Assembly (NCBI GenBank): GCA_900323505.1
Contig: OOIN01000028.1
Span: forward strand, 62,001-126,000
From: Ustilago trichophora
Taxonomy: Eukaryota > Basidiomycota > Ustilaginomycetes > Ustilaginales > Ustilaginaceae
Direction of reading: 5' to 3'
Length of the DNA: 64,000 nucleotides
Both the position numbers and the translations under genes were made by a program. Numbering within the stretch: position 1 is the first letter of the stretch; each line of letters opens with the position of its first letter. Positions 6,349 to 46,508 of this stretch are shown here, piece after piece. The notes under the pieces are model-generated. The model saw nothing but the letters and a program-made list of their open reading frames with translations, was not told the DNA's origin and did no database searches.

Positions 6349-6390
6349 TACAGTACATACAAGTACTGTACTGTACAGTACTGTACAGTA
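6349..6390. repeat. TA-(CTG/CAG)-TA array
   Basis: TACAGTA at 6349 is followed by a strict 5-bp-period run at 6364-6390 that reads TA CTG TA CTG TA CAG TA CTG TA CAG TA. Triplet orientation is mixed, unlike an ordinary slipped microsatellite. Each unit equals the scar expected after excision of a Tc1/mariner element ending CAG...CTG. Confidence 0.85.
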
Positions 6391-6418
6391 CATGGGCGTG
6401 CATGAACAATGTAATCTC

Positions 6419-6445
6419 GGGGGGGGGGGGGGGGGGGGGGGGGGG
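6419..6445 (+). repeat. Poly-G tract (27 G)
   Basis: There are 27 consecutive G residues, 29 bp after the end of the TA-CTG/CAG-TA array. The true length is uncertain because such tracts are poorly sequenced. Confidence 0.9.
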
Positions 6446-7352
6446 TTCTGTCAACTTGTTTCGTTTGGTCGTCTGTTGTGCGGCTCACGTCGATCCGAAC
6501 TGCGCTAAAGCTCCCTTAGACGAGAGCCCTTTTTTGCCCTTCTCCCCACACACGTTTGTCTGTCAAACTTTGCCATCCAGATCTCGGAGAGATTTTCGTG
6601 ATCCCCGTGACACTCACGCTCTGCACGGTTGCAGGTTTGTCTTGACTGTCCTGAGGTCAGTCGGAAGAATTGCTCCGCACAAACCTTGATTGGGGCCCCT
6701 CTTCGCTTACGACCGATGTTTTGCAAATTTTGCATGGCGAATGAAGACGATCCAGTGAGGACAGCGCTCGCTCATCTCGGTGGGGTAGATGTCAGCGTCT
6801 GTGCGGAGAAATCACCGGTAACGAACCCCTGTTTTTCTCGTCGTGCGAGCCTCCTCTCCACACTCTGATTCGTTTGTGCCGCCGCTCGAGCCAGCGTTTG
6901 TTGTCTTTTATTTTGGATCTCGCCGCTGTAATACCATTCACCATCATCTCCTCGCTTGACATCTGCAGCTCCGAGTTTCTGCCTTTCCAATCCAACACTT
7001 TCGTATCGTCCTTTTTCGCCATCTCAACCAACTTGCCAAGTTGGTCTCATCAACGGAATCTTTTCTTCTGTCCAACACCCAGTTCTGTCGTGCCTTGTGT
7101 AACCTCGTTTCGCCATCGACCAACACCCTCGCTTGACAGTCTCACGTTGCCTTTTTTCGCCTGTGTCTTGGCCTTTCGGCTGCTCTTGTTATTCCGTCCC
7201 GGCTTTCTATTCCGGCAGCCCATCGCTTGCAGCCGAGCAGTGTAGCATCGCCTCAAGCCGTTTTAGCCGTCCTCTCAAGCAAGCTCGTTCGCTAGACTCT
7301 GCAAATTTCGTCTGACCGCTTGGATTGTCTCGATCATGGGATCGTCTGAAAG

Positions 7353-7360
7353 CATAAAAG
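7353..7360 (+). promoter_or_regulatory. Possible TATA-like box of the glucoamylase gene
   Basis: CATAAAAG lies about 130 bp before the preferred start at 7486 and downstream of an in-frame ATG at 7336, which argues against using that earlier ATG. Confidence 0.3.
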
Positions 7361-7485
7361 CAAGCCGTGAATCGAGCCATCTCCTCTCCTCGTCATCAAC
7401 GAACCAAACTCATCCGAGCTACACCTCCTTTCCTCGCACAACTCCTTTTCCCAATTCCAAAGAGTTCGATCTCGATCTTGAAGCC

Positions 7486-9079
7486 ATGTCCAAGAACACC
7501 ACTGAAAGGCGCTCCAAGCCCATGGTGCTGCTCGGCAGTGCCGGTCTCGCGCTGCTTTTGATTTGCTTCTGCGCTTTCAGCAGCAACGTCGAAGCCGCCT
7601 CGATCGCCAGGTCGTTGATTGGCATCGAGAACCAGGCCAGCCGTCTCATGCCTCGCGCTGTCACCTCCTCGTACGCTTACCAGCGCATGCTCGCCAACAG
7701 TAAGTTGACCAACATAGTCTTTTTCAACTTGAGCGATTCGATTGTTGTACTGAATTTTTCCTTTTTATTGCCCCGTTCACTATTCGACAGTTGGAGGTGC
7801 TTCGTCCACCGCCGGCGGAAACCAGGTCCCCGGTGTCCAGACTGGTGCCGTCATCGCCTCGCCCTCGACTGCCGGCCCCAACTACTTCTACAGCTGGGTT
7901 CGTGACGCTGCTCTTACCATGAAGGTCGCTGTCTCGCAGGGCACGCTCGATCGTACACTTCTGACCAACTATGCCAACGCCGAGAAGGTTCACCAGCAAA
8001 ACGCCGCCAGCTCGAGCTCCGGTCAGGGTGAGCCCAAGTTCAACCCCGATGGTTCGCTCTTCACTGGTCCTTGGGGTCGCCCGCAGAACGACAGTCCTGC
8101 CTTGAGAGCATCGACTCTCATCGCCTTTGCCAAACGAATCGGTCTCACTGACCCTTTCACCACCGGCACGCTGTACAAGTCTGACCTCAACGGCGGCAGC
8201 ATTATCAAGACCGATCTCGAATGGGTCTCGCACCACTGGCAAGACTCTTCTTTCGATCTGTGGGAGGAGGTTCAGGGCACCCACTTCTTTACTCTCATGG
8301 TTCAGTACCGTGCTCTGATCGACGGTGCCAAGTTCGCCACTTCGATGAACGACCCCGGTGCGGCTACTTACTACAACCAGCAGGCCGCTGCCATCAAGTC
8401 CAAGCTGCAGACTTTCTGGGATTCGACCAATGGATACATTCAGGCTTACCAGGGTGTTAGCGGACGATCTGGTCTCGACTGCTCGGTCATGCTCGGTGCT
8501 CTCAAGGGTTGGGACACGACTAACAACTCGGCTGCCGTCGACGCGACCGTTTTTGGACCCGCCTCGGACAAGGTGCTTGCCACGCACCAAAAGTATGTCG
8601 ACAGCTTCCGATCGCTCTATGCGATCAACAACAACGCTGCCGCTCCCAACGCTGTTGGCACTGGTCGCTACAAAGAGGACGTCTACAATGGCGTAGACAC
8701 TTCCCAGGGCAACCCTTGGTACATCTGCACGCTCGCCGCCGCCGAGGTCCTCAACACGGCCGTTTCTGTCGCCAACACCCGAGGCAGCCTCTCGGTCACT
8801 TCGACTTCGCTTCCCTTCTACAGGCAGTTCTCTTCTTCGGCTGCTACCGGTACGTTCAGCTCCGGATCGAGCCAGTACACTGCGCTCACCTCGGGTATGA
8901 AGGCCATGGCCAACGGGTTTGTCAACATTGTCAACTCGCATTCGTGGCCCAACGGATCGCTCAACGAGGAGTTTAACAGAAACACTGGCTTCAACCAAGG
9001 TGCTCGTGACCTTACTTGGTCTTACGCCGCCTTTGTCTCCAACGACCTTGCCTCGCAGGGCAAGTACTTGGTTGTGTAA
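7486..9079 (+). CDS. Secreted glucoamylase, GH15 family
   Basis: Glucan 1,4-alpha-glucosidase releasing glucose from non-reducing ends of starch and glycogen. Coding is 7486-7699 joined to 7791-9079; the 91-bp intron starts GTAAGT and ends CGACAG and restores the family sequence across the join. The 500-residue protein begins with a basic n-region and a long hydrophobic stretch ending near VEAA (residue 37), a signal peptide. GH15 hallmarks are ASPS...NYFYSWVRDAALT, DLWEEVQGTHFF (general acid Glu about 230) and GSLNEEFNR...ARDLTWSYAAF (general base Glu about 464). It ends right after the catalytic domain, with no CBM20 starch-binding domain, unlike the long Aspergillus form. An in-frame ATG at 7336 would add 50 residues ahead of the signal peptide and is less likely. 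Confidence 0.95.
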
Positions 9080-9572
9080 AGAGTTTTTCTTTTACTATAT
9101 AGCCACCTTCCACCTTCTCACTTTTAGTCGCCGATTTTCGCCCCAAAAACTTGTCTTCGCTTCATCGCTCCCAAGCAATTGACCATTCTTCCAGTACCTA
9201 CGCTACAGTCACGAGCTTCCTGAAATATAGAACTGCTCGTCGTGAGGTCGTCGTGTAAGAATGATGACATTGCTCGTTGGAGGTTTGAGGCGCGAAACGA
9301 GATGCTTGCGACGTAACAATTTTCGATTTTTTTTTTTATTTTTTTTTTTTATTTCTTATTTTCGCGTCAAAAGGTGCATATTGGAGCTGCTGTGTGACTT
9401 CAGTGCACGCATAGGCCGCGCTGCTGATTCATGTCAGGTGGAATTTTGGGCTCAGGGTCCTTTGTTTCTCACTATACAGTACAGTACTGTAGTACTTGCG
9501 ACGCTGTGCCCACCACCTTGCTACAGTACCACCACTTATACCGGCTCGCTCATCTCGTGGAATGCGCAAGCA
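9080..9572. other. Intergenic, with TA-CTG/CAG-TA arrays
   Basis: This is the glucoamylase 3' region and the F-box gene 5' region. An A/T-rich T-tract (9329-9361) and two scar-like arrays are present. The downstream frame is open from 9261, but nothing coding-like precedes 9573. Confidence 0.6.
9475..9528. repeat. TA-(CTG/CAG)-TA arrays
   Basis: 9475-9491 reads TA CAG TA CAG TA CTG TA, and a separate TACAGTA is at 9522-9528. Both lie in the leader just upstream of the F-box gene start at 9573. Confidence 0.85.
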
Positions 9573-12500
9573 ATGGTCGAACACAGCAAAGACGATGGCG
9601 ACGTCGGCGTCGACCTCGACGTCACACAACGTGGCCTCCTTGCCTTGCCCACCGAGTTGATACACACCATCTTGCTCGCCTTACCACCGCTGTGCATCGA
9701 GCATTTTTCACAGACTTGCAAGCTCGCTCGACACCATGTATACGGCAATGCTAGCGAAGACAGCAAACGCAGCAACGGTAAAGGAAATTCAAAAGGAAAA
9801 GGCAACACCCATCTATGGAAACAACTATACCTACAACGATTCGATGACTATCAGCCTCTCTGGGACGGACCGTCGGTCATGTCTCTCGTTCAGCTTCGAG
9901 ATCGTGCTGCTCGCCTCTACGCTGGTGAGCCTAGTGGACACTCTGTTTCTCTCAACTTTGATGCCGTCTTGTCAGCCTTGCTCTCAATCATCGACACCGC
10001 AGTGCCACTATCGTCATCTTCCGACTCTTCCAGTCGAAACGCGACATGGCTCGACGACTCAGTGCTCTCTTCTGGACAGGCAACTTGGAGTCAGTGGGTC
10101 TTTCCTCGATCCATCATTACCACTCTGGACGAACTCAAGAGGGAGACAGCTGCGACCGACCAGTCGGTCATCCAGGAACGCAAGCGTAGACGTCTATCCG
10201 ATAATCATCGTCCCGGTGGCACCTCGACATCTGCAATCGACAAAAGACCCGACCCAATACGACGACGTTCCGTCCGTCTACTGAAGTACATGTATCCCAA
10301 GGCGTTGCATGGCCTTGTGGACGAAGGTGTTGACATCGACGCACTCTCGCCGCCGCAAGTGCGACTCGCCGCACGTATCCACTGCCTCCATGGCATACGT
10401 GCATGGAAAGACGCTCAGAAGCAACGCTTGACCGAGAGCCCTCAAGAGATACCCGGTCAACGCCAGCACCAAGATGGATTGGCGAATGAAGGTGCCTCCC
10501 AAGCATCAGCGCAGAACGCAGCAGAAGACAGCGTCAGCCCCGATTCTCGTGTGCAAGAAGACGACAACGACGATGACGCCAGCGATGACGACGACGACGA
10601 TGCTGACGACGAAAGCTTCGACGACCCGCCCGAAGCCATCCTACGCTTTCGCTCCAGAATGTTTGGGCCTAGTTTTGGCTTTTGCAGTGCGCCAGCCGAA
10701 GAGGACGAGGTCAGAGCACGCATGCGTCACCGTGTCTACGATTCTGGATATTACGGCTGGTCCAACGGGTATGCGCCTCTGCATGCCTGGCGATACAGGC
10801 CTGGACACGTGGAAGACGAGGGCGGAGACGACGACGGAGATGTAGACGAGGATGAAACGGATGATGTAGGAAGTGCTGGCTCCGAGGACGGCGACAACGA
10901 TGCTTTACGCGAAGCTGTCGACTTGAGCGACGACGACGAAGACATCCCAGACGATCCAGTGCCCATCGAGATCGAAGTCAGCAACGAAGGAGATCGTCGG
11001 ACCTTTCAAGTAGCTGATCGTTATGGCAATCCTATAGAAGCTAGTCGACCAGTCAGTCAAGCCTCAGATTTGCAAGCAGCATCCGGTTGGGACTCGTCAG
11101 ACGAGGAGATGCAAAATACAACAAGGAACAATGCTCAGAACGGTACCAGTCGCTCGCCATACGATCCACCCGATCTCGGCACTTATGACGCCAACACAAG
11201 AACATATACGTACGAGGGTCACCTACCGATGGCGCTCCTCACCGGCAGCCGCATCCAAGTCACCATCGGCGACACCGTCGACTTTGTGGCCATTGGCGAA
11301 CTCAACGTCCGATTCATTCGACCTGGCATGCTCGCTGAGACTATGCGGGTGACAAGTGGACACGACGACACGAGTGATGATCCACCCGTTGTCGAAGAGG
11401 ATGTGGAAGAGGATGAGGATGATGACTTTGACGAAGATGCAGACGATTGGAACGAACATGACGACGTAGATGAAGAAGATGACGATGGCGACAATTTGGG
11501 CACCTTGTTTGATATGTTCAGGCCTCTAGCTGGAGCTGCTGGCTATCGCGGCTGTCATGCCGACAAGGAGATCGGGCATTTGATCGAACAACGCAATGCC
11601 GTCGAAGAGAACAAAGAGGAGCAACCACCACAGATTATCAGTCTTTGCCGCAAATCCATCCACTGGGAGCTCGTAGAAGCCATCATGGTCATCATGTATG
11701 CCAATCTCAAAGAGGCGATCTGGCTCGAGAATTGGGGAGTGGGTATTCGCATTCCCAAGGTCTACGACGACAGCGGAATGCTCATTCGCGATCCTATGGA
11801 GGCGCGAGAGTTCCTCGACTTCCCTACCGGCTGGATGTCGTCTCTTCCAAGCTCGCTTCCACCCAAATCCAACTCGAAGGACGTCGCAGCAGAAGACGCT
11901 TCCGACGGCGACAAGGGATCATCCATGGCGACGACAACGAGTGACGACGACAAGCCACATGACTGGGCACGATGCGAGAGCTTCTGGGCAGGCACGTATG
12001 CCTTTCTCGACTATTCCCACTTTGTCGACTTCAACATGCGCATGGCTAGGCGGCGAAGGGAAGCGCTCGCCCGAGCCGAGACCCACGGCGATGGCAGCAG
12101 TAGCAACACGCAAACGAGCCACTCTTACCTCGACGCTACTCCGGATCCAAGCCTAGTGGGACAGGAAGAAGCCGTGGGCGACTGTCTGCAGCTACGTCTG
12201 GAAGTACTGCCGAAATCACAATGCCCGGCTTACGACGCAGACGAAGAGGGACAGGAAGACGACTCGGACTATCCGACGCTCTTCTTCCGTGGTACAACGG
12301 TAACGTACTGGGGCAACGATGCACCTATGCCTCGAGGTGGAGTGCATGGCAAAGTGCGACCGGTCTATGCGAGGGAAGAGGATGTTGACGAGATACTTTC
12401 ACGTGGTCCTCGGGGTAAGAAGAAGATCGAAGGGCTACACTGGTCGCTGACCCATGTGTACGAGGGTGAGGATCGCTGGCAGCTGGAAGGCATTCAGCCA

Positions 12501-12683
12501 GGTCCACCCGGTACACGTGCACCCATCTTTGGTATCTGGACAGATGCATTGCACGAGCAAGAGAGTCCAAATGGACCGTTCGTATACTGGATGATGGACG
12601 AAAGGCCCTGGAAGGAGATCGAACAGCTCAATCGACAGGAAGCACACAACATCGTCACTGCGAGAGCTGCGGGCGACAGGTGA
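9573..12683 (+). CDS. Large F-box protein with acidic tracts
   Basis: This is a likely substrate-recognition subunit of an SCF ubiquitin ligase. From the ATG at 9573 it is 1036 residues without introns. An F-box lies near the N-terminus (LLALPTELIHTILLALPP...FSQTCKLARHHVY), followed by a long region with several Asp/Glu-rich tracts (10560-10620, 10810-10960 and 11390-11490). The C-terminus has a conserved module including FFRGTTVTYWG, GGVHGKVRPVY, LHWSLTHVYEGEDRWQLEGIQ and a GPFVYWMMDE end, which I recognise as the C-terminal domain of a family of fungal F-box proteins of unknown substrate. The frame is open upstream to 9261, but that part overlaps repeat arrays and a T-tract and lacks domain content. 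The acidic tracts could bind basic partners; this is inference. Confidence 0.8.
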   Translation: MVEHSKDDGDVGVDLDVTQRGLLALPTELIHTILLALPPLCIEHFSQTCKLARHHVYGNASEDSKRSNGKGNSKGKGNTHLWKQLYLQRFDDYQPLWDGPSVMSLVQLRDRAARLYAGEPSGHSVSLNFDAVLSALLSIIDTAVPLSSSSDSSSRNATWLDDSVLSSGQATWSQWVFPRSIITTLDELKRETAATDQSVIQERKRRRLSDNHRPGGTSTSAIDKRPDPIRRRSVRLLKYMYPKALHGLVDEGVDIDALSPPQVRLAARIHCLHGIRAWKDAQKQRLTESPQEIPGQRQHQDGLANEGASQASAQNAAEDSVSPDSRVQEDDNDDDASDDDDDDADDESFDDPPEAILRFRSRMFGPSFGFCSAPAEEDEVRARMRHRVYDSGYYGWSNGYAPLHAWRYRPGHVEDEGGDDDGDVDEDETDDVGSAGSEDGDNDALREAVDLSDDDEDIPDDPVPIEIEVSNEGDRRTFQVADRYGNPIEASRPVSQASDLQAASGWDSSDEEMQNTTRNNAQNGTSRSPYDPPDLGTYDANTRTYTYEGHLPMALLTGSRIQVTIGDTVDFVAIGELNVRFIRPGMLAETMRVTSGHDDTSDDPPVVEEDVEEDEDDDFDEDADDWNEHDDVDEEDDDGDNLGTLFDMFRPLAGAAGYRGCHADKEIGHLIEQRNAVEENKEEQPPQIISLCRKSIHWELVEAIMVIMYANLKEAIWLENWGVGIRIPKVYDDSGMLIRDPMEAREFLDFPTGWMSSLPSSLPPKSNSKDVAAEDASDGDKGSSMATTTSDDDKPHDWARCESFWAGTYAFLDYSHFVDFNMRMARRRREALARAETHGDGSSSNTQTSHSYLDATPDPSLVGQEEAVGDCLQLRLEVLPKSQCPAYDADEEGQEDDSDYPTLFFRGTTVTYWGNDAPMPRGGVHGKVRPVYAREEDVDEILSRGPRGKKKIEGLHWSLTHVYEGEDRWQLEGIQPGPPGTRAPIFGIWTDALHEQESPNGPFVYWMMDERPWKEIEQLNRQEAHNIVTARAAGDR

Positions 12684-12897
12684 AGGTCAGACACCAATGT
12701 GACAGCCTGCGTTCGAGTAATGCAGAGAAAAAAGCGAAACGTCGATCCGATGCTGAACAGACCGTGCTTGATCACAAGCTGAGCTTAAGAGTGAGCGAGT
12801 TTCTGGAGATAGCTTGTTTATGGGGAAGCATCAGAACAAGCATCTCTGTTTATCATGCGGTTGAGTGGTAGAGTAAAGTACAGTGACAAGGTAAGCC

Positions 12898-13527
12898 TCA
12901 AAGTTCGATATGAGCAGAGCCAGTGCGGGCGTCAGCAGTGGCTGACCAGTCATCAAAGTCTCCCGGCTGTCTCTGTTGCGACATGTCACCGTCGAAATAC
13001 TTTTCTTGCCGTGTTGTTGATGCAGGAGTTCTTCCTCTTGTCCAATTCCATTTGGCTACAGCTCTGGCGGTGTCGCCAGCCCAACCTACACCCGTGATGC
13101 CCAACGCTGGTGCGACGACGACCCTTGCGAAGATCTCACCAAAGCCGAGCATGACACCGTTGAGGAAAGGCAGGCCGAGATTGATGAAGATCGAACCGGA
13201 AATGAGTGCCAGTCGACGGGAAAGCGGGATGGAAGAGTACGGGTTGAAAGCTGCCAATGTAAGCGATCCTGTGGGCGGGTAATTTGGTTTGGTCGCTTCC
13301 TGATCTTCTTCATTGTCAGAGTCGAGCTCGTCCGATTCGTGATCTGCTTGGAGCTCCGATGGTGCAGAACCATCCTTCTCGTCGATCTCTTCTTGTTCGG
13401 AGGAAGATCGTGCGTCCTTGTGCCTATGGATGATTCGAGGCATGCCAGTGGCAGAGACGGTGGGGATGGCTTCAGTGTCGCCCTTTGCATCTGTGCGCGG
13501 TGCATGCTTCTCCTCGTGTGACGGCAT
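12898..13527 (-). CDS. MIM1: Mim1-like mitochondrial outer-membrane insertase subunit
   Basis: A 209-residue protein. The family signature is one hydrophobic segment, SIFINLGLPFLNGVMLGFGE, flanked by polar and acidic residues, matching the conserved core of Mim1/Tom13, which helps insert alpha-helical proteins in the outer membrane and assists TOM assembly. The Gly-rich face of the segment suits helix packing between subunits. The N-terminal half is acidic and Ser-rich (the residue 45-80 region) and probably cytosolic; the C-terminal tail is polar. It is longer than the yeast protein (about 113 residues) because of both tails. It converges with the F-box gene (214 bp between stops) and diverges from the CDC16 gene. 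A short minus-strand frame at 13551-13796 lies in its leader and cannot be joined in frame by a credible intron. Confidence 0.8.
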   Translation of the reverse strand: MPSHEEKHAPRTDAKGDTEAIPTVSATGMPRIIHRHKDARSSSEQEEIDEKDGSAPSELQADHESDELDSDNEEDQEATKPNYPPTGSLTLAAFNPYSSIPLSRRLALISGSIFINLGLPFLNGVMLGFGEIFARVVVAPALGITGVGWAGDTARAVAKWNWTRGRTPASTTRQEKYFDGDMSQQRQPGDFDDWSATADARTGSAHIEL

Positions 13528-14106
13528 TCTTTCGGGACGACAAAAAGTGATTACTTGGGCAGATCAAGGATGGAGATGATGCTGTTGGCTAGAGGATCGT
13601 GCTGCTCTTCGGAAGAAGGGTTTGAGGATAGTTGATCTTGGGTAGGGGCCAAAGCTGGTTGGTCGATTGGTTGCAGACGTGGTTTAATCAATGCTGTGTT
13701 TGAAGATGAACCGATCGCAGGTTGAGGGACTGTAGTAGGCGCGGTAGATGAGTGCGATGAGGTGTGTTTGGAGTCGTCCGAGGGCGATGCCTGCATGCTG
13801 CGAGCAAGATGATGGCAGGAAGGAGGAAGGAGGAGAGTTGTGGATCAGGGTCCAAGCTACCTCGACTACAACGTTGAAAGCCGGCGCGGATCCGACTAAC
13901 TGTATGTGGAGGTTGCTTTTTTGCTTAAAGTGTTAAATCGTGATACTCTCCGCGGCCAACCAAAGTCGCGTAAAGATCAACACCAAAAGAAACACACACA
14001 CAAGCCAACACATCATCCTTTCCACCTTTCTACCATCTCCAGACACAGTCACAGTCACAGTTACAGACACACACACTCACACACACACAGGCTCATCAAC
14101 GCGGTC
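13528..14106. promoter_or_regulatory. Shared divergent promoter region (MIM1 / CDC16)
   Basis: This 579-bp space lies between divergent starts. A CACAGT-type repeat merging into a CA-rich run occurs at 14040-14092, in the probable leader of the CDC16 gene. No firm TATA or CCAAT site is assigned. Confidence 0.5.
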
Positions 14107-18575: not shown

Positions 18576-19909
18576 TGTAGTTCAAGCAGTGAAGGATGCA
18601 GATGTGCTCTGTTCGAATGCAGTCTTTTGAAAGAGATGCGATTGGACGATGCGATGACGACGAGTCCCTCTAAATAGTGCGAGCGTGTCGAGGTAGCAAG
18701 TGACGATGAAGGCGAAGATGCAGAGAAGTAAAGACTTTGAAGTTTAAGGCCGGATGAAGACGCGGGAAGGATTTCGAGGAAGATGAAGGAAAGGATGGCA
18801 GCAAGCAAGGTGAGGGGAGGAGGCGGCAGCGCTTATATGGGATGAGGAGATGCGGCGAGGGGCGAGGAGAGCGGGACGAAGGGATTTCCGAAGCTAGTAG
18901 ATTGTAGCGGCGGTATAGCAGAGGCCAAGAGCAAGAGCAGGAGGAGGAGTGAGACCAAAGTGGCGGCAATCAAGGCAAGCAAAACCAAAGAAAGCGCAGT
19001 CCGTCGCGTCGGCCTTGTCTCGCAAACAGACGGAGAGAGTGTGGATGAAATAGGTTAGGGAAAGAACCGGAACACGAACACACGCTAATCAGCACCCCGC
19101 TCTACCTCTGACAGAAAGCTGAATCAGGATCGGCGGAAGCATGCAACAACGCAGAGCAACGGACGGATGGACCGGAGAATGGCAAAAGCGGGCGGATGAG
19201 AGACACCAAGGTGCAACGGCATCAGAGCACAGTTGTCACTTCTTTGTGTGTGACGGGTGTCCCGACCAACGGACACGGCGACTCTCTCTGCCTCACCCTC
19301 TACCTTTCCCACGGCAAGCGCCTATCTCACTTGGCATGGTGTTGTGATTGCCTCATGAAACAAGAAGGAATGGTCACTCTGACGGCAGCGCCGATCGATC
19401 TCCCCAACAGCTGCTCTTGAGTTTTCAATCTTTCACTCTTTTGGGCAAGAGAGACACACTTTCGGCCTCTCTCTGTTCTTTGAGATCCTTAACACCGTCC
19501 GTGCCAACTTTGACAATACAGGGCCGCGTGACCCCCTTTTGCCTTACAAAAAAAAGAGTCGAGTGCTTTCCCGCATGCACCCTGCGTCCACAACAGAAGA
19601 GAAAGAGAAAAAAAGAGCGACTGCACGAGCCATGGTTCAAGCAAAAGCGCTTGAGCTTGACTGTCAAAGTGCCGAGCGAGCGTAACAATGATAAGGCTGG
19701 GCTGTACCCTGCAGGAGCGCGCAGCAAAATGCGGGGTAAAAAAAGAGGGTCTTGTGAAGCGAACCTGGACACTCTTGCGTTGCGGCAGGCGATTGAAGGT
19801 CAGGGTTTCGAAAGCATCACCGATGCGCCGCCCAATCGAAACGTCGGCGGTTGGCGATTTGCTCCCCAGAGGCCTAACAAACCCCACAGCTCGGAAATTC
19901 GCGGCAACT

Positions 19910-19999
19910 TACTGTACTGTAACTAACCACTTCGAAAATAGGGAATTTCCTTGGAACAACAGCGAAAAGCATCGGCGTATCTATATCAACAATACTGTA
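19910..19999. repeat. TA-(CTG/CAG)-TA units
   Basis: 19910-19921 reads TA CTG TA CTG TA; a single TACTGTA is at 19993-19999. Confidence 0.8.
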
Positions 20000-20105
20000 A
20001 GGACACCCCATCTCATCCGTGATGCCAAAGACAGGTCGCGGAGAGATCCGTGTTGTGGCTAGCCCTACGTTCAGGCTGACGAGCATTCGGGAAACGAGCA
20101 AAAGT

Positions 20106-20117
20106 ACAGTACTGTAC
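20106..20117. repeat. TA-(CTG/CAG)-TA array
   Basis: The site reads TA CAG TA CTG TA, mixed orientation. A single TACAGTA follows at 20511-20517. Confidence 0.8.
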
Positions 20118-20380
20118 AATCACCAACATATCGTTGCGTAACTGTAGCTTCGTAACAAGGTGCACAGATTGCCATATCAGATGCTACGCCACACCATATG
20201 GCTACTTCTTATCGATATCACCTTTTCCTCTCCCTCGCAACGTCTGAGCTTCCCACATGGAGCTAGTGTGTGTCTAAAGCCGTCCCCTCCGTTGAATCGG
20301 ACTCAAGGTTATCATCACACCAATGCTCGATTACAAATCACAGAGTAGCTATAGTAGCACGGCAGCAGCAGCTGTGATCT

Positions 20381-20413
20381 CTCTCTCTGTCTCTCTCTCT
20401 CTCTCTTTCTCTC
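20381..20413 (+). repeat. CT-dinucleotide microsatellite
   Basis: A mostly CT repeat interrupted by GT and TT, in the 3' flank of the dehydrogenase gene. Confidence 0.85.
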
Positions 20414-20526
20414 AAGAAGGTCAGTCAATATTGGGACAGAATAAAGTTTTGAAGAAGCCGGCTGTGGAAGGCACGGCTAACTGTCAAGGACCCTGAAGGT
20501 TGTGCCTAACTACAGTATTACGAAAT

Positions 20527-22077
20527 TTAGAGCTCGGCCTCCATCACCGACTCTTTACCTGGCTCTTCGCGCAGGCCAAGCGCACCCAAGAGGTTCTGCA
20601 TCGTCATATCCGCCATAGCCTGACGAGTCTCTGTCGTTCCACTGCCAATGTGAGGGAGCAGCGCAACCTTGTCTCTGCAGTCAGGAGCCAGCAATGGATG
20701 GTCTGCATGGATCACTGCAATTCGTCCAAGCCGTCAAAAAATTCAAGGAAGAATAAAAAAAATCAACGTCAGCTTCGCGGAAAAAAAGGCCACGCGGGTA
20801 TGCGGACAAGGCGGAGCAACGGATACAGCGGCTGGACAAAGCACCACAAGCAGCAGCAGCAGCAGCAGCAACAACAACAACATCATTCCACTGACAATAT
20901 CGTGACCACCTTTGACGTGATCCACAACGTCGAACGGAATGCTTCGGATCTTGCCGTCCTGGCTCTTTCCGCTCTCGCTGAATTGTCAACTTACCTGGCT
21001 CGCCTTCGATGACGTCCAATCCAGCTCCAGCGATGAGGTTGTTCCGCAGCGCTTCGACGAGGGCTTCTGTGTCGACGGTGCCGCCGCGCGAGGCGTTGAT
21101 GATGTACGCGGAGCTCCTGCGCGGGTCAATCCACCCAATTCGGAACGGGATAACATGGATCATGACCGGTTACAATGTAGCAAGTTCGCCGTCACACCCG
21201 ACGGTGTGAGCCAAACAATACGAGCGGCGTAGCAAAAAACGGAAACGATTGTGGTCAGTAAACCTTGAATCGGCCTCGCTTCTCTCCACAACCGCAGTAG
21301 AAAGCTGAGCAATACGTACTTCATAGCCTCCAAAAACTTCTTGCTTACAATGTGTTTGGTGCTTGGGTTCAGATCCACAAGCACAAACACCAAATCAGCC
21401 GATCGAGCCATCTCGATCGGGTCCACCTCGTTCTCAATCCTGATTCGATCCGTAGGGAATCCACCGCTCATCAGCGAGCTAAAGTACTTGTCGTTGGCGT
21501 CGAATTTTCGTGCCCTCGAGGTTGTGTAGAGGATTTTGGCAGGCTTAAAAGGTACGAGCAAATTGGACAGCGACTGACTGATGTTGCCGAATCCAAGGAA
21601 GCCAATGGTTTTGTCCTTGATGCTGGGACCCATGAAGCATGTTGGCGTCCAGGGGAAGTTAGGCCACTGACCCTCGCGCACTGTCCTCGTTGCAATTGGT
21701 ACTTGACGGGTCACCATCAGAGCCAGAAGCAGGCATAGTTCGGCAACAGCTTCGTCTAGCACTCGAGGAGTGTTGCCCACTCGAACACCGCGCTTCTTGA
21801 CGAGCGCCAGGTCAATGTGATCGTATCCAACACTCATAGTGCTGATCACCTTGAGAGAGGGTCCTGCTGCATCGAGAAACTCTTCATCGACTCGCTCAGT
21901 GAGGCAGATAACAGCACCATCGACGCCCTTGAGATTGGTCAACACCCACTCGCGCGACGGTGCTTGCTCGCCTTCCTCTTCAGCTCGCGTGATGAGTTCG
22001 ACCTTGCCTGCTGCCTCTGCTCGCTTGAGCACTTCTGTTGGCATGGAACGGCATACGAGAATCTTCGGAACTGCCAT
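20527..22077 (-). CDS. D-isomer 2-hydroxyacid dehydrogenase (glyoxylate/hydroxypyruvate reductase-like)
   Basis: An NAD(P)H-dependent reductase of 2-keto acids such as glyoxylate or hydroxypyruvate. Coding is 21320-22077, 20995-21116 and 20527-20714 on the minus strand; introns of 203 bp (GTACGT...GCGCAG) and 280 bp (GTAAGT...TTGCAG) restore a continuous 355-residue family sequence. The nucleotide-binding loop is GFLGFGNI; catalytic Arg is in NASRGG (exon 2), Glu in GLDVIEGEP (end of exon 2), and His in LLPHIGSGT (exon 3). All three catalytic residues are kept. The second intron contains a CAG/CAA trinucleotide tract. The C-terminus ends soon after the last helix with no targeting tripeptide that I recognise. 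Substrate cannot be fixed from sequence. It diverges from the 2H phosphoesterase gene. Confidence 0.92.
20849..20884 (+). repeat. CAG/CAA trinucleotide tract inside intron 2 of the dehydrogenase gene
   Basis: About seven CAG units are followed by CAA units, read on the plus strand; on the transcribed strand it is CTG then TTG. It lies within the 280-bp intron at 20715-20994. Confidence 0.9.
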
Positions 22078-27991: not shown

Positions 27992-28001
27992 CGTGTGTTT
28001 T

Positions 28002-36357: not shown

Positions 36358-36854
36358 GATTGGCTGTTGGAGAGGGTGTTGGATGGTGAGGGTATCGAAG
36401 CGAGAAAGCAAAGGAAGCGATTCGCTTTTGTATAGAGGTTGGGTCTAAGGAACGCCGAACGGAGGAAGGTTGCGGAGGAGGGTGGGTCGGACGATGTCCA
36501 AGAAGAGAAGAGGCAAGATAGGAATGGAGCAGACTTGTCAACCTTGTCCGTGGCTGAGAAGGGTCTCTCTCTCTCAAAGCCTCAAAATCCAAATTCCAAA
36601 TTTTTCAATTTCTTCTTGACAGTAAAAAATTGATTTGACGCAGTTCGAGTCGCGCGACGTTTTAGAATGTTAGACCGTGATTGCTGTTTCATTTTCATTT
36701 TTGTATACGCCGAATTTCAAGCGCTTTTGTCCAGTCCTGCATAAGCTGCAGGTGGCGACTGGAGAACAAGACTCCACTTCCACCCTCCTTCTTCTTTGCT
36801 TCCTCAACATCATGCCCAAGGTTCGAGTATCAAGTCCAACGGAAGAGAAAAGGC
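36358..36854. promoter_or_regulatory. Divergent promoter region (GUA1 / mutase-like gene)
   Basis: A 497-bp space, AT-rich around 36590-36710. No site is assigned. Confidence 0.4.
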
Positions 36855-37793: not shown

Positions 37794-37867
37794 AGTCATA
37801 CCCTCCCCTTCAAGCCTAGTCTTTTTATTATACCCCTTGCACAGTACATCAGAGTCTTGCACAGGGT

Positions 37868-37889
37868 ACTGTACTGTACTGTACAGTAC
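37868..37889. repeat. TA-(CTG/CAG)-TA array at left end of the Tc1/mariner element
   Basis: TA CTG TA CTG TA CTG TA directly precedes the element terminus CAGTACGTGTCC at 37885. Confidence 0.85.
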
Positions 37890-37949
37890 GTGTCCAAAAG
37901 TGTGTGAACGGGTCTAAATTGTTGAATTATTTTCTAATTTTTTCAAGCT

Positions 37950-38900
37950 TGTACACCATCAATTTTGGTCCATTCTGACCGCAAAGGTGTTACTCAACAC
38001 ATCTATAACTTGGTACAGGCAATGTCAGACAGGCTGTTCAGCCTACCATGGAGTCATAATGGCAGATTGCAAGAGTAAAGAGGTGATTTGGGCCAGTTGT
38101 CCGACATCACTTCATCAACCGTGTTTGAGGCAGGCTGAATTCACCCCCCACAGCTCCATGGCTGCCCAGGCAGTAATATATGAGTTGATCTGGTCAGCTA
38201 AGCCCACAGACAGCTTGCCAATGTGATCCAGTTGGTGTGCAGATAAGTCATTCAGGACCTGTGCAGCATTGCCCGGTGCTAGGGTCTTTCAAACCAACGG
38301 CAGCATATGGATACTGAGAAAGATTGTTGATCCTGATCAGGCCTCCTGTGCTTTGGCTTCAATTCTGGCTTTGCAAGTGGTCATCTCGATGAAGCAATTG
38401 CATTGTGCAAACAACCACCTTCCAAGGTAGCTACCATGAGCTTATATCCATTCACAGAGACCATATGGCTGGACAGGGATTCCTGGAAGCTGGTGACACA
38501 AAAACAGCTTCAAAGATGGTTTGGTTGTTTGAACCTTCACCTTGCTTCCGATGTCTCTGTACTTAGGTTGAGCTTATGAATCAACTTGTGAAGCATGCCA
38601 GGATAAGACTGTGGTTCCAACATCCTTAAAAAGCTGCAGAGAAGCCCAAAGCATGCTTCACAACAAGCCTGAGGCCATGTCCAAGCTCATGGGTAGTGTT
38701 TGAGGAAGGCACAGTGGCTGGACAAGAAGATTCAGCTTCACACCCCATTCTGTGCTGTCAGAATACCCCTGTACAGCAAGCAAGTACATGGAATGTTTCA
38801 TTGGATGCCTGTCCACAACATCCTTGAGTCTGACAGCGGGTTTAGTAGTGATATGATGGGTGTTGAGTCCACTCAAGCTGTTCCCCACAATTTTGAGGTA
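37950..38900 (-). pseudogene. Tc1/mariner transposase remnant
   Basis: No intact frame survives. On the minus strand, fragments in changing frames and separated by stops resemble Tc1 transposases: TTKPAVRLKD near 38840-38870; a SMLWASLQLFKDVG fragment near 38600-38660, at the place of the GSVMVWG region; and AQVLNDLSAHQLDHIGKLS followed by AWAAMEL near 38160-38280, at the place of the region between the second and third catalytic acids. The SPDLNPIE motif expected there is replaced by leucine, isoleucine and serine codons compatible with C-to-T changes. The assignment rests on this partial resemblance plus the inverted repeats. Confidence 0.6.
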
Positions 38901-38930
38901 TGGTGAAAAATAGAATTTAATTAGACCCGT

Positions 38931-39190
38931 TGTAGCGAGTTCAGGAAGATAAGATGAAGGTAAGCTCAAGTCCGAGCTTCGCACGAAGGTAGTATGAAGA
39001 TAGGCTGATTATAAGATGATGGTAGTTGGAGACGAAACTGAGCTAATCGTGAAGGAGAATATTTGATCACACGCGACGAGTGCGCGCGGACCACATTTGG
39101 ACTTGGTCACCGGATCCGACCTCGATAATTAATCGGCTGGATCGGATAGATCGGCGAACTCGCGATGATCATCGACCTTGACTCGGAACA
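38931..39190 (-). repeat. 3' LTR (260 bp)
   Basis: It matches 46209-46468 at 258 of 260 positions. No clear polypurine tract is seen in the adjoining 39191-39230. Confidence 0.97.
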
Positions 39191-39418
39191 GTGCCAACTA
39201 AAAAGAAGGCTTCGTCCCAAAGTCGGTACGAAAGAAGAAAAGAAGCAGCTACGATACAGGAGACAAGAAACCCATGGCCAGTGAGGGTATGAGACTAACG
39301 GGTATAAATGTGTAGAGAAACGAGACGAGAAACCGTAACCAGAGACCGAAACGAGAAACGAAACATATTGTCTGTGAGATGAGTGGTGGTGAAAAGGTAT
39401 TGTCCATAAGAGGGATGA
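39191..39418 (-). other. 3' non-coding part of the LTR retrotransposon
   Basis: 228 bp between the integrase stop and the 3' LTR; no frame or tract is assigned. Confidence 0.6.
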
Positions 39419-41167
39419 CTAATCCCTAAGCTCGTCTTCCCCGGCGATGATTGCCTGCAACTCTTCAGTTGGAGTTCGAACGACTGGAGTAGATGGTTCA
39501 GTGTCTTCGACAATGTTGATAGAAGTGGTGGAAGGATAATATCTCTTTAGTCGATCGAGATGCACCCGTTCTTCCTTTCCGTCGATGATGCTCTTGATCA
39601 AGAAAGTTTTGCGCTTCTTCGACATCACCATGAACGGACCAACCCACCTCGGTGCAAGCTTTGCACGAGTGGAGTATGTTGACTCATAGAGAGTTTGATG
39701 CCGAAGTACGAGATCCCCAAGTTCGATACTTGCACCCAAAGCCCTAGGTTTGCTTTTGTCGGACCTAATCGCTTGTGCTGTCTCCAAAGTTGACAAGGCT
39801 TCTACCCGGCGTACGTCGATGAAAGCTCGTTGCATTTGCACATCACTCAACGTTGGAGTGCCAGTGGCTGCGGGAACACGATCAGCCATAACGTAGCCGA
39901 AGAGTAGCTCCGTTGGGGAGAGATTGGAGAAGTCGTTTATAGGACGGCGATTGAGCTCTCGCGTGGCTGATGAGAGGTGTTCGGTCCATGGGAAAGCAAG
40001 CGACGTCGTTACAGCATTCTCCATGGCGGCAGCGCAGAGACGTCGAAGAGTTTGCAGGATTAAGCCGTTATTTCGCTCGACAAGACCGTTGACCCAAGGT
40101 GCATAGGCGGGTGTGATCTGTTGATCAACACCGTGCTCGGTCAGGAAATCGTAAACTTCTGCGCAGTCGAAGTGGCTCCCACCGTCTGTAATGATGGTAG
40201 ACGGTAGGGTAGAGAGAGTGTTGTGGAGTGTTTGAAGACTCGCGACAACATCGACTCCACGAGCCTGTGACAAAGGAAACGTCCACAAGTAGCGCGAGAA
40301 ATAGTCAACGATGACCAAGAGCTTTGACTTGCCATGTGAATTCGGTAGAGAGACGAAGTCCATAGCCCAGGTTTCCATGGGAGCTGCAACAACGATAGGA
40401 TCCACTTGCGATCGATGACGCGGACCATAGAGTTGACAGGCCTGACACGTCCTGAGGACCCCTTTGGCATCGGCGTACAGCTTTGGCCAGGTAACCATCT
40501 CTTGTATCCTGAGCTTTTTTACCAACATGTTGACCCCGGCGTGTCCAAGTTGATGTACTTGCGCGAGCTTGTGTATACCTTGTGAGCGTGGCAACACATC
40601 GAGTAAGAGACCATCCTGTTCGTAGACAAGCTTGCTGTCCACCAACCGATATCTTTTTAGTCGTCGCAGCTTGTCTCGTTGAGCTTGAGTACTGGGCATT
40701 TCGAGCAGAAGCAAGAATCGGAGGATAGGTTCCAGCTCGTCTCCTTCGAACCGTTGCAAGAGAGGGCCAGCTTCCTTATCGATGACCAGGTAATGATTCA
40801 CAATATCTTGGGTAGAAGATTGTGGTTCGTAAGCGAGAGGGGAGCTTGCCTCGTTGAAGGAAGCAGGTTGATCATGGCTGACGTTATAAGCAGGGAGGTA
40901 CGACTCGCAGACCATGAGGTCTCTGTCATCTGGGAGGACGGGGACAAGAGGCTCGTCGTCATCCGGTGCTACTGGCCGATGTGAGAGACCGTGTGCCAGT
41001 TGGTGACGTCGACCAGCACAGTGTTCGACTTTGATGATATTATGAGCCAACAGTTGCTCTCGCCAACGAGCATGGGCAACTGGCATCTTGTCGTTGCGCA
41101 AGATATCTCGTAGTGCAATACAATCGGTTACCAAGATGATAGGTTGTCCGAAAGTAAAGGCTGAGAA
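39419..41167 (-). pseudogene. Ty3/gypsy RNase H end and integrase (pol, third segment)
   Basis: This segment continues the RT/RNase H frame after an in-frame TGA at 41168-41170. The RNase H end shows FGQPIILVTDC and HCAGRRHQLAHGLSHRP. The integrase zinc site (HQLGH...CQAC), then the catalytic core with Asp in WAMDFVSLPN, Asp in IITDGGSHFD and Glu in NGLVERNNG, are all kept. A C-terminal GPF-like module (LAPRWVGPFMVMSKKRKTF) follows, and no chromodomain is visible. The stop separates it from RT, so the product needs readthrough or is lost. Confidence 0.85.
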
Positions 41168-42487
41168 TCAACAGAGCGCGAACTTTGCAGCAACCAGTTC
41201 TCCGAGATGAGCAGAGTATCGTGATTCGGCGTCAGTGCATTTCTTGGAAGCGTAGGAAATAGGGAAAACGACTTTCTTGAGGGTGACGCCAGGGGACGGG
41301 ATGACTTCGGGATCGTTGAGCAAGTTCCATCGACCATCAGGACCTTTCTGCATGACGTGCTCTTGAAGCAATGCGGCACCGATGCCTTCAGAGCTCCAAT
41401 CAGAATGAACAATAAATGGTCTATCCCAACGTGGCTCCTTGAGAACACGACTGTTGACAAGCGCATTTTTTACTCGTAGGAAAGCCGCGGTGTGGTCTGG
41501 CGTCCAAGCTTCAACTAGTCCAGCATCATAATCTACGATGCCGACAGTGAGCGAGTCGAGCGGTGCAAAGACCTTAGCAAAGTCTGGGACTTTGGAGCGC
41601 AAATAGGAGCACACTCCTCGGAAAGTCATAAGCTCGCGAACCGTCTTGGGAACCGGCCAGTTGAGGATGGCTTTGAGACGAGAAGGATCTGCACGGATAC
41701 CGTCAAGTCCAATCAATTGTCCACAGAAAGTGATGTTCTCGTGCAGGAACTGACACTTCTGTACCGAAAGAGTGAAACCGGTGTCAATGGCGCGGTCTAA
41801 GAAGGCTCGAAGCCAGCAGAAGTAGGAATCGAAGTCTTGATGACCCGTAGCCACGTCGTCCATCCAAAAGTCCGAATCTCTGTCGAAGAGGTCTTCGAAG
41901 GCTGTAGTAATGAACCTATAGTAAAGCGAAGGTCCAACCTTGAAACCAAAAGGCATGACAGTATATCCGACGAAACCGAAGTCTTCAACGTAGGTTACCG
42001 AGAGAAGAGTCGCAAGTCGCGAGTTTGCCATGATGAAGAAACCAGCGCAGCCATCGCCTTTGAAAAGAAATCGCTTTCCAGACAATTTGGAAGCCTTGAC
42101 TTCGATGTCACCGGGCACGAACGGATTATCCTTCATGTAGTGGTTAACTGGTGCATAGTTGTGCACAAGACGATAGCGACCTTTGGAAGCTTCCACAGTT
42201 GGAGGAGTGGCAACAATGCTTGGAGGAGGCAGAGACGCGTCGTACTCAAGTCCAGCTTCTTTGAGCGCTGCATTAGCTTGGAGCTTGAGCTCTTCAAGAG
42301 AGACGTTTGAGTCGATCTCTGCTGCTGGTTTCGGGACGATCCTTGTCTCGGAGATCCATCGTACCTCATTCTCAGGGATTTTAACCATGAAACCGTTGTC
42401 GAGGAGTTCTCTAACTTTGGAGTGTAAGAAGTCCTTTTGCGGCGGCAACAACGCTTGAGTCTTCGACCTTCGCTTGGTAGGTGGTGG
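41168..42487 (-). pseudogene. Ty3/gypsy reverse transcriptase and RNase H (pol, second segment)
   Basis: It follows an in-frame TAG (42488-42490) and ends at an in-frame TGA (41168-41170); no ATG starts it, so it would only be made by readthrough. RT motifs are LLDNGFMVKIPE, YRLVHNYAPVN, LFKGDGCAGFF, GYTVMPFGFKVGPSLYYRF and the catalytic WMDDVATG (a YxDD-type box with Trp in place of Tyr), then FLHENITFCGQLIG. The RNase H start is FIVHSDWSSEGIGAALLQ, with ISYASKKCTDAESRYS and HLGELVAAKFAL. All core acids are kept. Confidence 0.88.
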
Positions 42488-44310
42488 CTAACTCGTCAGG
42501 ATAGGATCACAGATGACCTCGGCATTCTGCTTGCACTCAGCTGTTGTTTCGGCAAATGCCAAGTGCTTAGCACGGAGAAGGGCTGCGAGATGCCGACGTT
42601 GAGCTTGTGTACCGACTGTTCCGAAGCGAGTGAGAAGACTCTCTAAGACCCGTTCGGACCTCTCTTCAGAATCGTCGTCAGGTTTGCCATTGACTCGATA
42701 AGGACGGAAGCGTCGATAGATCCGAGAACGAGTGTCGAGGTAGTCTGGGTCTTCGTTGACCACTGGTAGACGGCGTTGCAAATCTTGGAGCTCTTGCTCG
42801 TCGACAGGAAGATCAAACCGTACTGAGAGTGATACCATGGGTTTGTGATCCATATCAACTAGCTCGTCGAAAGGAGTAAGATCAAGTGCTTCGTCTACCT
42901 CATCCTCCAGTTCCTCGTGCAAGTCATCGTCCAAGGAAAGGGACGACATATCGAGCATAGTGTGGGAGGAAGAGAGGGCTTCCAACTGCTCTACACTAGC
43001 ATACGGCTGGGCCGCAATGAGGAGCTTGACAGCCGACATCGGCGTGTCAGGAACCAAGTCGGGATTCGCTTGCTGATGGGTGGGAATGAGTCTAGCCCAT
43101 CGGCGGAAGAGAGAACCAGAGTTGTATTGAGGGACGAAGAGCAGATCGAGCTCATAGAAGTGCAAAGCACCAACCTTTACCTTCCAAGGTCGTCCAAGTA
43201 GCATAGCCGTGATGGTGCTTGGCATGACTTCGTACTCGACTTCGACAGGATCAGTATTGATGCCATCAACGTCTCGTACGGTGATCTGCAGCTTTACGAC
43301 ACCAAGAGACTGTACAACTTGACCGCTCGCCATCCTAAGGTGGATATCAGATGGCGTCGGCTCGAGACCTGTTAGCGCGACCAAAGATTGAGAAATCGTA
43401 TTGACCATCGCTCCTTCATCCACACCGGCAATGCAGGCGTAATCATTGGACTCCGTAGAAAATTGCACTGCGACGGTGAAAAGTTGATTCTTACTTGCGT
43501 GTGCTTTGTGTTGAAGGGCACGAAGATCAACTTGAGGCCGGGGATGAGATTGTCGGCGAGGAAGATTTACGGCTGGAGGAGGTGGAACGAGCGATTCAGG
43601 TAAAGGTGGTGTAACCACCGAAGGAGAACGAGAAATGCGAGGCGAAGGTGGCGGTGTCGTGGGTATGGAAGTAACAGTTTGTTCGGCAAGAGAGTCCAAA
43701 ACAGGCTGAGATGCAGGAGAGAGAGCAGAAAGAGGGCTCATCTCAGCATGAGAGTGTTCGTCAGAGAGGGACGAAATGTTATGTCCAACACCAGACGAAT
43801 CACCGAGACCAGTTCGCAAATCATAAGTAGGGGAAAGGAAAGGGGAAGACGGAACAGATCGAGTGTGCGACACAAGCGCATCATCTTGCTCCTTTTCAGG
43901 AGCTGCTTTATCGAGAGAAGTGCTCTTGCCTTCCTCAACGTCAGCTAAGGTACACTCACTTCTTAATCCGACGAACAGAGATTCTCTCCTTTCCTCAGAG
44001 GAAGGGGGCATGGCTCGCACTGCGGTGCCAGCACCAGTCAGCAAACGAGCACCTTTTTGAGAAGATACTCGAGGGAGAAGTAAGTGTTCTTGACGAACGT
44101 GAGGAGTGGGCTTGAGACACTCCAACTTATTGGCAGGAATGGAATCATAAACAGGAACAGTAGCAGGGAACGAGGAAGACTGCTGCGTCGACGCAGGAGA
44201 AGTAACCGTAGCAAGAGGAACAGTCGACGAGCCAATGAGGAGACCCAGAGTAGCGTGAACGGCCGAGCGAGTAGGGTCTTGATAGATCGCCGGCCTTACT
44301 GGTTTCCCTG
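42488..44310 (-). pseudogene. Ty3/gypsy protease region (pol, first segment)
   Basis: The frame is -1 relative to gag and is open back into the gag end near 44310, so a -1 frameshift would join them. The N-terminal 190 residues are Ser/Pro-rich. The retropepsin-like domain has ACIAGVDEGAMVNTISQSL, ASGQVVQSLGVVKL and AMLLGRPW. The D-S/T-G active-site triad of the family reads DEG here, so activity is doubtful unless this is a family variant. An acidic linker follows and the frame ends at a TAG that is in the same frame as RT. Confidence 0.75.
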
Positions 44311-45570
44311 GCCCCTTTGCTGCATGACGGCCTGAGAGAACATACGACGATAGTTCTGTTCAGCTTGGTCAAGAGCTCGTTCGTTGGTGTCTTTGCAGAA
44401 GCGGTATTGATGACCCTTTTTGCCACATCGATGACACTCGCCAGTACCCAGATGCTCCGTACCAGGGTAAAGGGGATAGGCATGAGTCAAGGGCGGTTGA
44501 AGGTGCACACGAGGATGCTGCATCCTATACTTCTTGAGAGCCTCCTGATAATCCTGATGGCCTTTGTCCGTGTCAGGGAACATCAGCTGTGGGATCGTAC
44601 TAACGTTGACGGGGAGGGTGGGTGGAGGCATGATTCAAAGAGTATCACCCTTACCATCACTGCCAGAAGGAGACGGCGAAGGGGAAAGAGTCTCGAAGCG
44701 AGGTCGTTTCTCCTCGGGAGGGGTAGGGGGAAGGGAGCCACGACGACGAAGATTGTTGAGGATGACCGTGATGTCATTAAGACGAGTACTGACTTTGGCC
44801 AGCTCGTCGTGAGTAGCAACGACCTTCTCATAGACCGTGGTTGGCAGAGCTCGGCAAAGGTTGACCGCCTCGGAGATCGATTTGGGCATGGTGCCGAGAT
44901 GAGAGAGTAGACCTTCGGGAAGGGCAGTCCAAAACTGAATAGTCATGTATTCCTCGGAGACAAAGGAAGTGTCGACTTTGGTGGCGAGATCCAGTACATC
45001 AGCGAGCCACAGACGCCAAGCCTTGACATCGCGAAGATCTTCGATCGTCTTGGGTGTCTTGACGGTGTCTTGAAAGTCCTGGTAACGTGTAGCTGGAGTG
45101 TCGCGGACTTTACGAGCATCACCGTATTGGAGGAGAAAAGCCGCTTCGAGCAACTCAAAGTCCCCTTTGGTCGAGGGACTCTGCTTGCTGAGCCAGTCGC
45201 GTGCGGATTCGGTCATAAGAGCCTTGAAGTACTTCAGCTTTTGAGCTGGATGATCGTCAATACCCCTGTCGAGACAAAAGATTTCAAAGTCCTCGAGCCA
45301 AGACTGTGCATCGACGTCGCGAACACCACCCGTGAACTTGGGGATCATGCTGTTGACGGCGACGGTCGGTTTTGAGACAGGAGGTGACAGCGACATCTTG
45401 AAACCTTTAAGTTCTTCTGACAGACAAGGGATAGTGAGAGGGACTTGAAGATCTTGTTGCGGATCGTAAGACGGGGCGAAGTATCGAGGGAAAGAATGTC
45501 GTCGAGGCGGCGAAAGTGGAGCAACCTCGGGATTAAGACCTGCCAGTCGCCTTGAGTGACGATCAGGCAT
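44296..45570 (-). pseudogene. Ty3/gypsy gag with an in-frame stop between capsid and nucleocapsid parts
   Basis: The capsid part starts at an ATG at 45570 (311 residues) and has PKFTGGVRDVDAQSWLEDFE and KYFKALMTESARDWLS, typical of retrotransposon gag. An in-frame TGA at 44635-44637 is followed directly by ATC ATG and a further 111 codons in the same frame, ending with one zinc knuckle, CHRCGKKGHQYRFC (CX2CX4HX4C). One nonsense change would account for the split; alternatively the ATG at 44631 restarts a separate nucleocapsid. Confidence 0.85.
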
Positions 45571-46208
45571 GCGTTTGGGACGTAGGAAGGAGGTTGAATG
45601 AAGTCAACGGCGCAAGCAGCAGCCAACGTCGTTGAAGAAGCGATGAGAGCGAACACAAGTAGTAGTCAAAAGTAATTGCCGATTAGAATGTGTCACCGAC
45701 CGAGAAAAAGGATAACGGCGATGCGAAGACGAGAAGATTGAAGACCGTGAAGAGAGTTCAAAACGGCTTCGAAAAGGTCTTGAAGCGATTGCGAGACGAA
45801 GGTCAAAATTGGACAGTCAAGGATGCAATGAGATCTTGAGAAAACCGTATTGAGACCTAGAAGAGGTCTAGAAACGGGTTGAAAGCGATTAAGGAGCAAG
45901 TGTTGACTCGCCGCGATCGATGAGATTGCAAAGAAGCGGATGGATTCGCCGCTAGTAGTCGAAAAGTAGTCGTAATGAACAGATTGAAAGTCGAGAGAAG
46001 GGAGACGAGGTCGTAGGCCTCCGGATCAGAGCAATCACGGAGATAGTAGAGAGTGAGAGAAAGGATAAGTTTGTCGCGATCCTAAGCTTAAGATCGCGAG
46101 AGCAGAAGTGGATGGATTCGCGATACAATCGCGAAGAGATGTCGTATTGAAGGAGGAAAAAGACGTCGAATAAGGTGAAGACCGCCGTTTCCGGGTTGGC
46201 CCCCCAAA
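45571..46208 (-). other. 5' leader of the LTR retrotransposon with candidate primer-binding site
   Basis: A 638-bp non-coding leader. Immediately inside the 5' LTR, on the minus strand, is TTTGGGGGGCCAACCCGG (46191-46208), a TGG-containing candidate primer-binding site; I cannot match it to a specific tRNA. Confidence 0.5.
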
Positions 46209-46468
46209 TGTAGCGAGTTCAGGAAGATAAGATGAAGGTAAGCTCAAGTCCGAGCTTCGCACGAAGGTAGTATGAAGATAGGCTGATTATAAGATGATGG
46301 TAGTTGGAGACGAAACTGAGCTAATCGTGAAGGAGAATATTTGATCACACGCGACGAGTGTGCGCGGACCACATTTGGACTTGGTCACCGGATCCGACCT
46401 CGATAATTAATCGGCTGGATCGGATAGATCGGCGAACTCGCGATGATCATCGACCTCGACTCGGAACA
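46209..46468 (-). repeat. 5' LTR (260 bp)
   Basis: It matches 38931-39190 at 258 of 260 positions and is followed on the plus strand by the CCGT duplication and the interrupted inverted repeat of the Tc1/mariner element. Confidence 0.97.
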
Positions 46469-46491
46469 CCGTTCACACACTTTTGGACACG

Positions 46492-46508
46492 TACTGTACT
46501 GTACTGTA
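46492..46508. repeat. TA-(CTG/CAG)-TA array at right end of the Tc1/mariner element
   Basis: The element ends with CTG at 46494-46496 and is followed by TA CTG TA CTG TA, ending at 46508. Confidence 0.85.

Follow-up and report, generated by a model that had tools for sequence, protein, structure and literature searches.

What left the short arrays of TA-CTG-TA and TA-CAG-TA, with the two triplets in mixed order, that are scattered through the window (the whole stretch of DNA that was analysed, 64 kb long)? According to the original prediction they are excision scars of a Tc1/mariner transposon, stacked at re-used sites. Searching for the unit TACWGTA, in which the central W is A or T, revealed 25 units in 12 maximal runs, and arrays were present at every position that had been named, with small coordinate corrections. 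Those given as 20106-20117 and 37868-37889 run from TA to TA at 20105-20116 and 37867-37888, and the single units at 19993, 20511, 56888 and 61043 were all recovered. The units at 6349-6390 are present but do not form one run, since the single unit at 6349-6355 is separated by an 8-bp interruption from the run at 6364-6390; similarly, 9475-9528 holds a run of three (9475-9491), with a single unit standing apart at 9522-9528. The features are as follows, with the central base of each unit given in order.

6349-6355, no strand: single unit, followed by the interruption of 8 bp.
6364-6390, no strand: run of five units, T T A T A, after the 8-bp interruption.
9475-9491, no strand: run of three units, A A T, inside the ORF at 9261, in its 5' part.
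9522-9528, no strand: single unit TACAGTA, from the word search.
19910-19921, no strand: run of two units, T T, from the word search.
19993-19999, no strand: single unit TACTGTA, from the word search.
20105-20116, no strand: run of two units, A T, from the word search.
20511-20517, no strand: single unit TACAGTA, also found in the homeologous region.
37867-37883, no strand: three units, T T T, left of a transposon copy, the last TA being its TA duplicate.
37884-46496, no strand: 1,071-bp non-autonomous Tc1-like copy with ends CAGTACGTGTCC...GGACACGTACTG, split by an LTR element.
38931-46468, minus strand: LTR retroelement in the transposon copy, with 260-bp LTRs that are 99% identical.
46497-46508, no strand: two units, T T, right of the transposon copy, the first TA being its TA duplicate.
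56888-56894, no strand: single unit TACTGTA, from the word search.
61043-61049, no strand: single unit TACTGTA, from the word search.

The number of units in the window far exceeded the mean of 1.63 obtained from 100 dinucleotide-preserving shuffles, none of which reached 25, and the overlapping double unit TACWGTACWGTA occurred 13 times versus 0.00 in the shuffles. CAG or CTG accounted for 25 of the 80 TA-NNN-TA words, and the runner-up triplet for 5. The same triplets ranked first (37 of 179; second, 12) in 30 loci chosen for their DDE_3 transposases without regard to units. The units at 37882-37888 and 46492-46498, two of the 25, are not scars but consist of the end triplet of the transposon itself between TAs. 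All single units and arrays had been described as lying outside genes. With ATG-started ORFs of at least 300 aa as a rough gene proxy, which spans 62% of the window, this was true for 10 of the 12 runs, but those at 9475 and 9522 lie inside the ORF at 9261. Both fall within its first 90 codons, upstream of its third in-frame ATG (9573), and may therefore belong to a 5' UTR. Rfam gave no match in the window at the gathering score. The window also contains, at 4749-5097, a direct repeat whose period is roughly 140 bp (201 bp, 95% identical).

The genome scan for (TA[CTG/CAG])nTA that had been suggested along with the original prediction covered 38,820,965 bases in 45 contigs, with the pattern read backwards as the control, and showed a large excess. 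At least one unit was detected at 13,973 places (4,129 in the control), two units at 3,762 (11), three at 1,756 (1) and six at 129 (0), and the longest stacks had up to nine units in succession. The number of runs of at least two units is thus 2,006 (3,762 minus 1,756), and an estimated 2.2% of the TA dinucleotides of the genome lie within units. The word with C or G at its centre, TACSGTA, was not in excess genome-wide (2,120 versus 6,031 in the reversed control). By simple arithmetic, this ratio gives about 1,450 expected TACWGTA and hence a surplus of roughly 12,500 units.

The probable source of the units is one Tc1-like DD34E transposon with the ends CAGTACGTGTCC. A genome-wide search for the transposon end CAGTACGTGTCCAAAAG with at most two mismatches found 30 places, versus 3 per strand in the reversed control; 20 were exact and made ten pairs, and 10 had one or two mismatches. 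The ten copies with both ends comprise two of 1,371 bp, seven of 1,071 bp and the split copy of the window, and each is flanked by TA on both sides. The 1,371-bp copies carry an open transposase frame of 353 aa from its ATG, which matched the profiles DDE_3 (E 3.5e-11), HTH_Tnp_Tc3_2 (E 3.6e-10) and HTH_23 (E 2e-6) and resembles Sleeping Beauty SB100X (E 7.7e-15); its best protein match is 99% identical and labelled Ustilago trichophora. The catalytic residues are D146, D255 and E290, with 34 residues between the last two, which is the DD34E spacing. The inverted repeats measure 27 bp in the 1,371-bp class and 34 bp in the 1,071-bp class (97% in one copy). A DD34E transposase, a Tc1/Tc3-type helix-turn-helix, terminal inverted repeats and TA duplication are accordingly all present, as in Tc1/mariner elements.

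Copies of one size class are 99.3-100% identical, indicating recent movement, and the presence of near-identical copies at different sites suggests cut-and-paste mobility. The 1,071-bp copies are non-autonomous. At the sensitivity used, the two classes have the ends alone in common, so that the short copies were probably moved by the long ones. As predicted, the window contains an element with CAG...CTG ends inside an array, with units on both sides; it is not decayed, however, because it matches a sister copy at 99.8% identity over 1,048 bp and is merely interrupted by the LTR retroelement. The latter sits 28 bp from the right end of the copy and has integrase, reverse transcriptase and RNase H domains in separate ORFs.

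Two other definitions of the element were rejected. A boundary at the inner TA (start CGTGTCC) was discarded as the outside triplet reads CAG inwards at 20 of 20 exact ends, a count set by the search pattern itself; the search with two mismatches gave no further full end pair. A 5-bp target duplication was discarded as the bases beside the transposon ends repeat as TA alone. At two loci (around base 1500 of L048 and L057), single ends that look truncated or altered lie in or beside units and may have been left by imprecise excision; the other eight inexact matches to CAGTACGTGTCCAAAAG may be due to chance.

All ten copies of this transposon are bordered by one or more units on one or both sides, three of them having none on the left, whereas no unit was touched by any of 20 copies from other DDE_3 families. 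The genome has 45 DDE_3 matches, two of which belong to the CAGTACGTGTCC family; the loci of 30 further matches were sampled, and 20 had TA-flanked inverted ends by set criteria. As three loci (L077, L078 and L084) have common flanks, these 20 copies represent about 18 separate sites. Their ends start with TTC, CAC, CTC or TCG, and once with CAG, in a 1,881-bp element with CAG...CTG ends (L075) that touches no unit. Among the loci L058-L087, these other Tc1-like families include several with the ends TTCCTTT, CACCTTTTT, CTCTATTTTT and CAGTGAACTC, mostly in AT-rich sequence and not in units. Two loci on contigs C32 and C36 (L088 and L089) were rejected as relatives, as the transposase of the CAGTACGTGTCC transposon had no match in them at E 1e-5 and their ends were dissimilar.

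The sites at which runs began were analysed from the outer flanks of 76 runs of at least two units, 60 of them from contig C1. These flanks are symmetric, with G at -1 in 66%, T at -2 in 41% and A at -4 in 40%, and the palindrome GTAC was the seed in 33 of the 76 runs, compared with 11.9% of the TA sites in the loci and the window. Single units showed a weak preference (G in 36%; GTAC in 9 of 71). Since each scar restores G-TA-C, scars should be favoured targets, and this feedback would stack them. The palindromic seeds, together with the independent orientations of short runs, mostly on C1, agree with the prediction of re-used hot spots. A trend towards A in the first unit (48 of 76 runs) and T in the last (45 of 76) was dropped, as the genome-wide counts of neighbouring AT (685) and TA (772) were unsupportive.

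These data also bear on whether a single family was involved. Several CAG-ended Tc1-like families, some of them since lost, could have made most of the scars, with the CAGTACGTGTCC family as a survivor; this variant is compatible with stacked scars of one element. The number of DDE_3 matches in the genome, the CAG...CTG ends of the 1,881-bp element and the low number of copies (10) for so many scars speak for it, but none of the 20 other copies with detectable ends touches a unit, the 1,881-bp element included, and the seeds fit a single GTAC-type preference. We regard it as unlikely.

The orientation of neighbouring units was predicted to be random within arrays, and this was true for short runs: in 73 runs of two to five units, mostly from C1, 91 of 174 neighbour pairs were alike and 20 runs were pure (17.7 expected), and in the 50 runs of at least three units on C1, 74 of 146 pairs were alike. 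Genome-wide it failed, with 1,191 AA, 1,114 TT, 685 AT and 772 TA pairs (the last by difference), so that 2,305 of 3,762 pairs (61.3%) were alike. Pure triples numbered 788 of 1,756 (44.9% versus 25% expected) and pure five-unit windows 141; among the runs of at least six units that were listed, 17 of 34 were pure (0.9 expected), and in the other 17, which were mixed, like units clustered (P 0.027). Pure triples counted from the listing number 28 on C1 and 69 on C2, two contigs of nearly equal length, and therefore the independence seen mainly on C1 is not valid for all contigs; the putative subgenomes perhaps differ in how runs grow.

Mixed orientation had been taken to exclude replication slippage. 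This does not hold genome-wide, since the excess of like pairs, pure triples and pure long runs implies that slippage or a bias also acts. We attribute the excess to slippage in addition to scar formation; it may also come from a local repair bias. Could the runs then be mainly a pentanucleotide microsatellite that grew by replication slippage and that the transposon merely favours? The genome-wide surplus of like pairs and pure triples, the purity of half of the listed runs of at least six units and the clustering of like units in the others would fit. Homogeneous units, as in a microsatellite, were found in many long runs, and the runs of two to five, mostly on C1, were mixed. Against such an origin, A and T centres mix as if at random in short runs, the centre is W and not S, the thousands of single units require a different origin, the seeds are palindromic, and the unit equals the end triplet of the transposon plus TA. 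As the main process, slippage is thus quite improbable; as a second process, it is probably real. That TACWGTA is instead a pre-existing functional non-coding motif, such as the site of a regulatory protein, which the transposon evolved to target, is very improbable. The possibly non-coding position of all 12 window runs (10 outside long ORFs and two near an ORF start) and the unit common to the window and its diverged homeolog would fit, but such a motif accounts neither for the strict 5-bp stacking, the random centre and the succession of up to nine units nor for the identity of the unit with the exact transposon end triplet between TAs.

The homeolog is a single diverged counterpart to a 2.6-kb stretch with four unit sites: window positions 18600-21200 match C21:634842-637436 piecewise at 69-74% identity. 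Window and homeolog both carry the single TACAGTA at 20511. The homeolog lacks the unit at 19993, whose flanks align better without it (score 41) than with it (36; best of 100 shuffles, 35), although no clean empty TA was seen at the equivalent position in the C21 homeolog. For the runs at 19910 and 20105, the flank alignment scores were inside the shuffle range. At 20059-20062 the window reads GC-TA-GC (TA at 20060-20061) and the homeolog GC-TACTGTA-GC, with 19 of 23 bases equal; the match aligns on one side, with a score of 34 versus 35 for the best of 100 shuffles, and the difference is suggestive of the change expected from one scar. A search for empty alleles of 116 sites (flank-TA-flank against the locus set) gave none among the matches listed, which were same-locus overlaps, transposon-end matches and two weak matches of site 6349. 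At 38.8 Mb, the assembly has roughly double the size listed for U. trichophora RK089 in an excerpt of PMC5897528 (20.68 Mb). On the basis of this one region and the size, it may hold two subgenomes, as in a hybrid, or two organisms.

In summary, the units are very probably stacked scars of a Tc1-like transposon that re-entered its own scars, with slippage as a second force. As predicted for Tc1/mariner scars, the unit is TA plus the transposon end triplet, and it resembles a Sleeping Beauty-type footprint: TA, three end bases in either orientation and TA, with W and not S at the centre. The transposon with the ends 5'-CAGTACGTGTCC would enter at TA, ideally in GTAC, and duplicate the TA. On excision, its last three bases would presumably remain as 3' overhangs, as with Sleeping Beauty, and two CAG overhangs would pair at their outer bases, leaving an A:A mismatch at the centre. 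Its repair would yield CAG or CTG, which would explain the A/T centre and the mixed orientations, and each cycle would add 5 bp, turning TA into TA-CAG-TA or TA-CTG-TA. The new TA would again lie between G and C, a preferred target, so that the element could return and the runs grow, some of them extending further through the copying of identical units. Several findings sit less easily with this scheme, namely the striking ratio of only 10 copies to the surplus units, the single unit at 20511 that a diverged homeolog has in common, the like pairs, pure triples and pure long runs above independence, and the empty-site match that aligns on one side and scores no higher than the best shuffle.

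The chemistry has precedents. As described in parts of PMC7827188, the transposases of Sleeping Beauty and mariner cut one of the strands at a point three bases within the element, which leaves 3' overhangs of three bases, and the footprints are identical to those overhangs; in an extract of PMC3432063, the words TACAGTA and TACTGTA serve to detect Sleeping Beauty footprints. The overhangs, the footprints and a related transposase are the likeness to the Sleeping Beauty and Tc1-Tc3 systems (PMC7827188 and PMC3432063, in the same excerpts), but those systems show single experimental footprints, whereas here a single genome has thousands, frequently arranged in tandem and apparently serving as preferred targets. 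For Stowaway elements in Triticeae, a section of PMC1925063 describes one intron site that was repeatedly entered and lost, with an element inserted next to an earlier footprint. The common feature is that elements were inserted and lost again repeatedly at a single site, but that case concerns one locus with ragged footprints, unlike the regular genome-wide 5-bp stacking reported here. No description of stacked Tc1 scars was found in a search covering part of the literature, and with the one-site precedent in that section of PMC1925063, the genome-wide regular stacking of scars seems to be new. Pentanucleotide microsatellites have tandem 5-bp units in common with the runs, and the pure long runs are similar; the units here differ in their mixed A/T centres, palindromic seeds and link to one transposon family.

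Cut-and-paste transposons generally leave few traces of earlier movement. If stacked scars are the correct reading, the surplus of about 12,500 units and the roughly 2,000 runs of at least two log the jumps of an element that now has only 10 copies retaining both ends. It is rather probable that the scar is itself the preferred target of the transposon, which would make the genome a self-seeding recorder of past jumps. This feedback would let a low-copy element jump often and yet revisit mostly non-coding spots. The runs would serve as markers in 5-bp steps for tracing fungal lineages, and the genome seems to hold a countable record of jumps, from which excision, repair bias and target choice could be read and compared among isolates.
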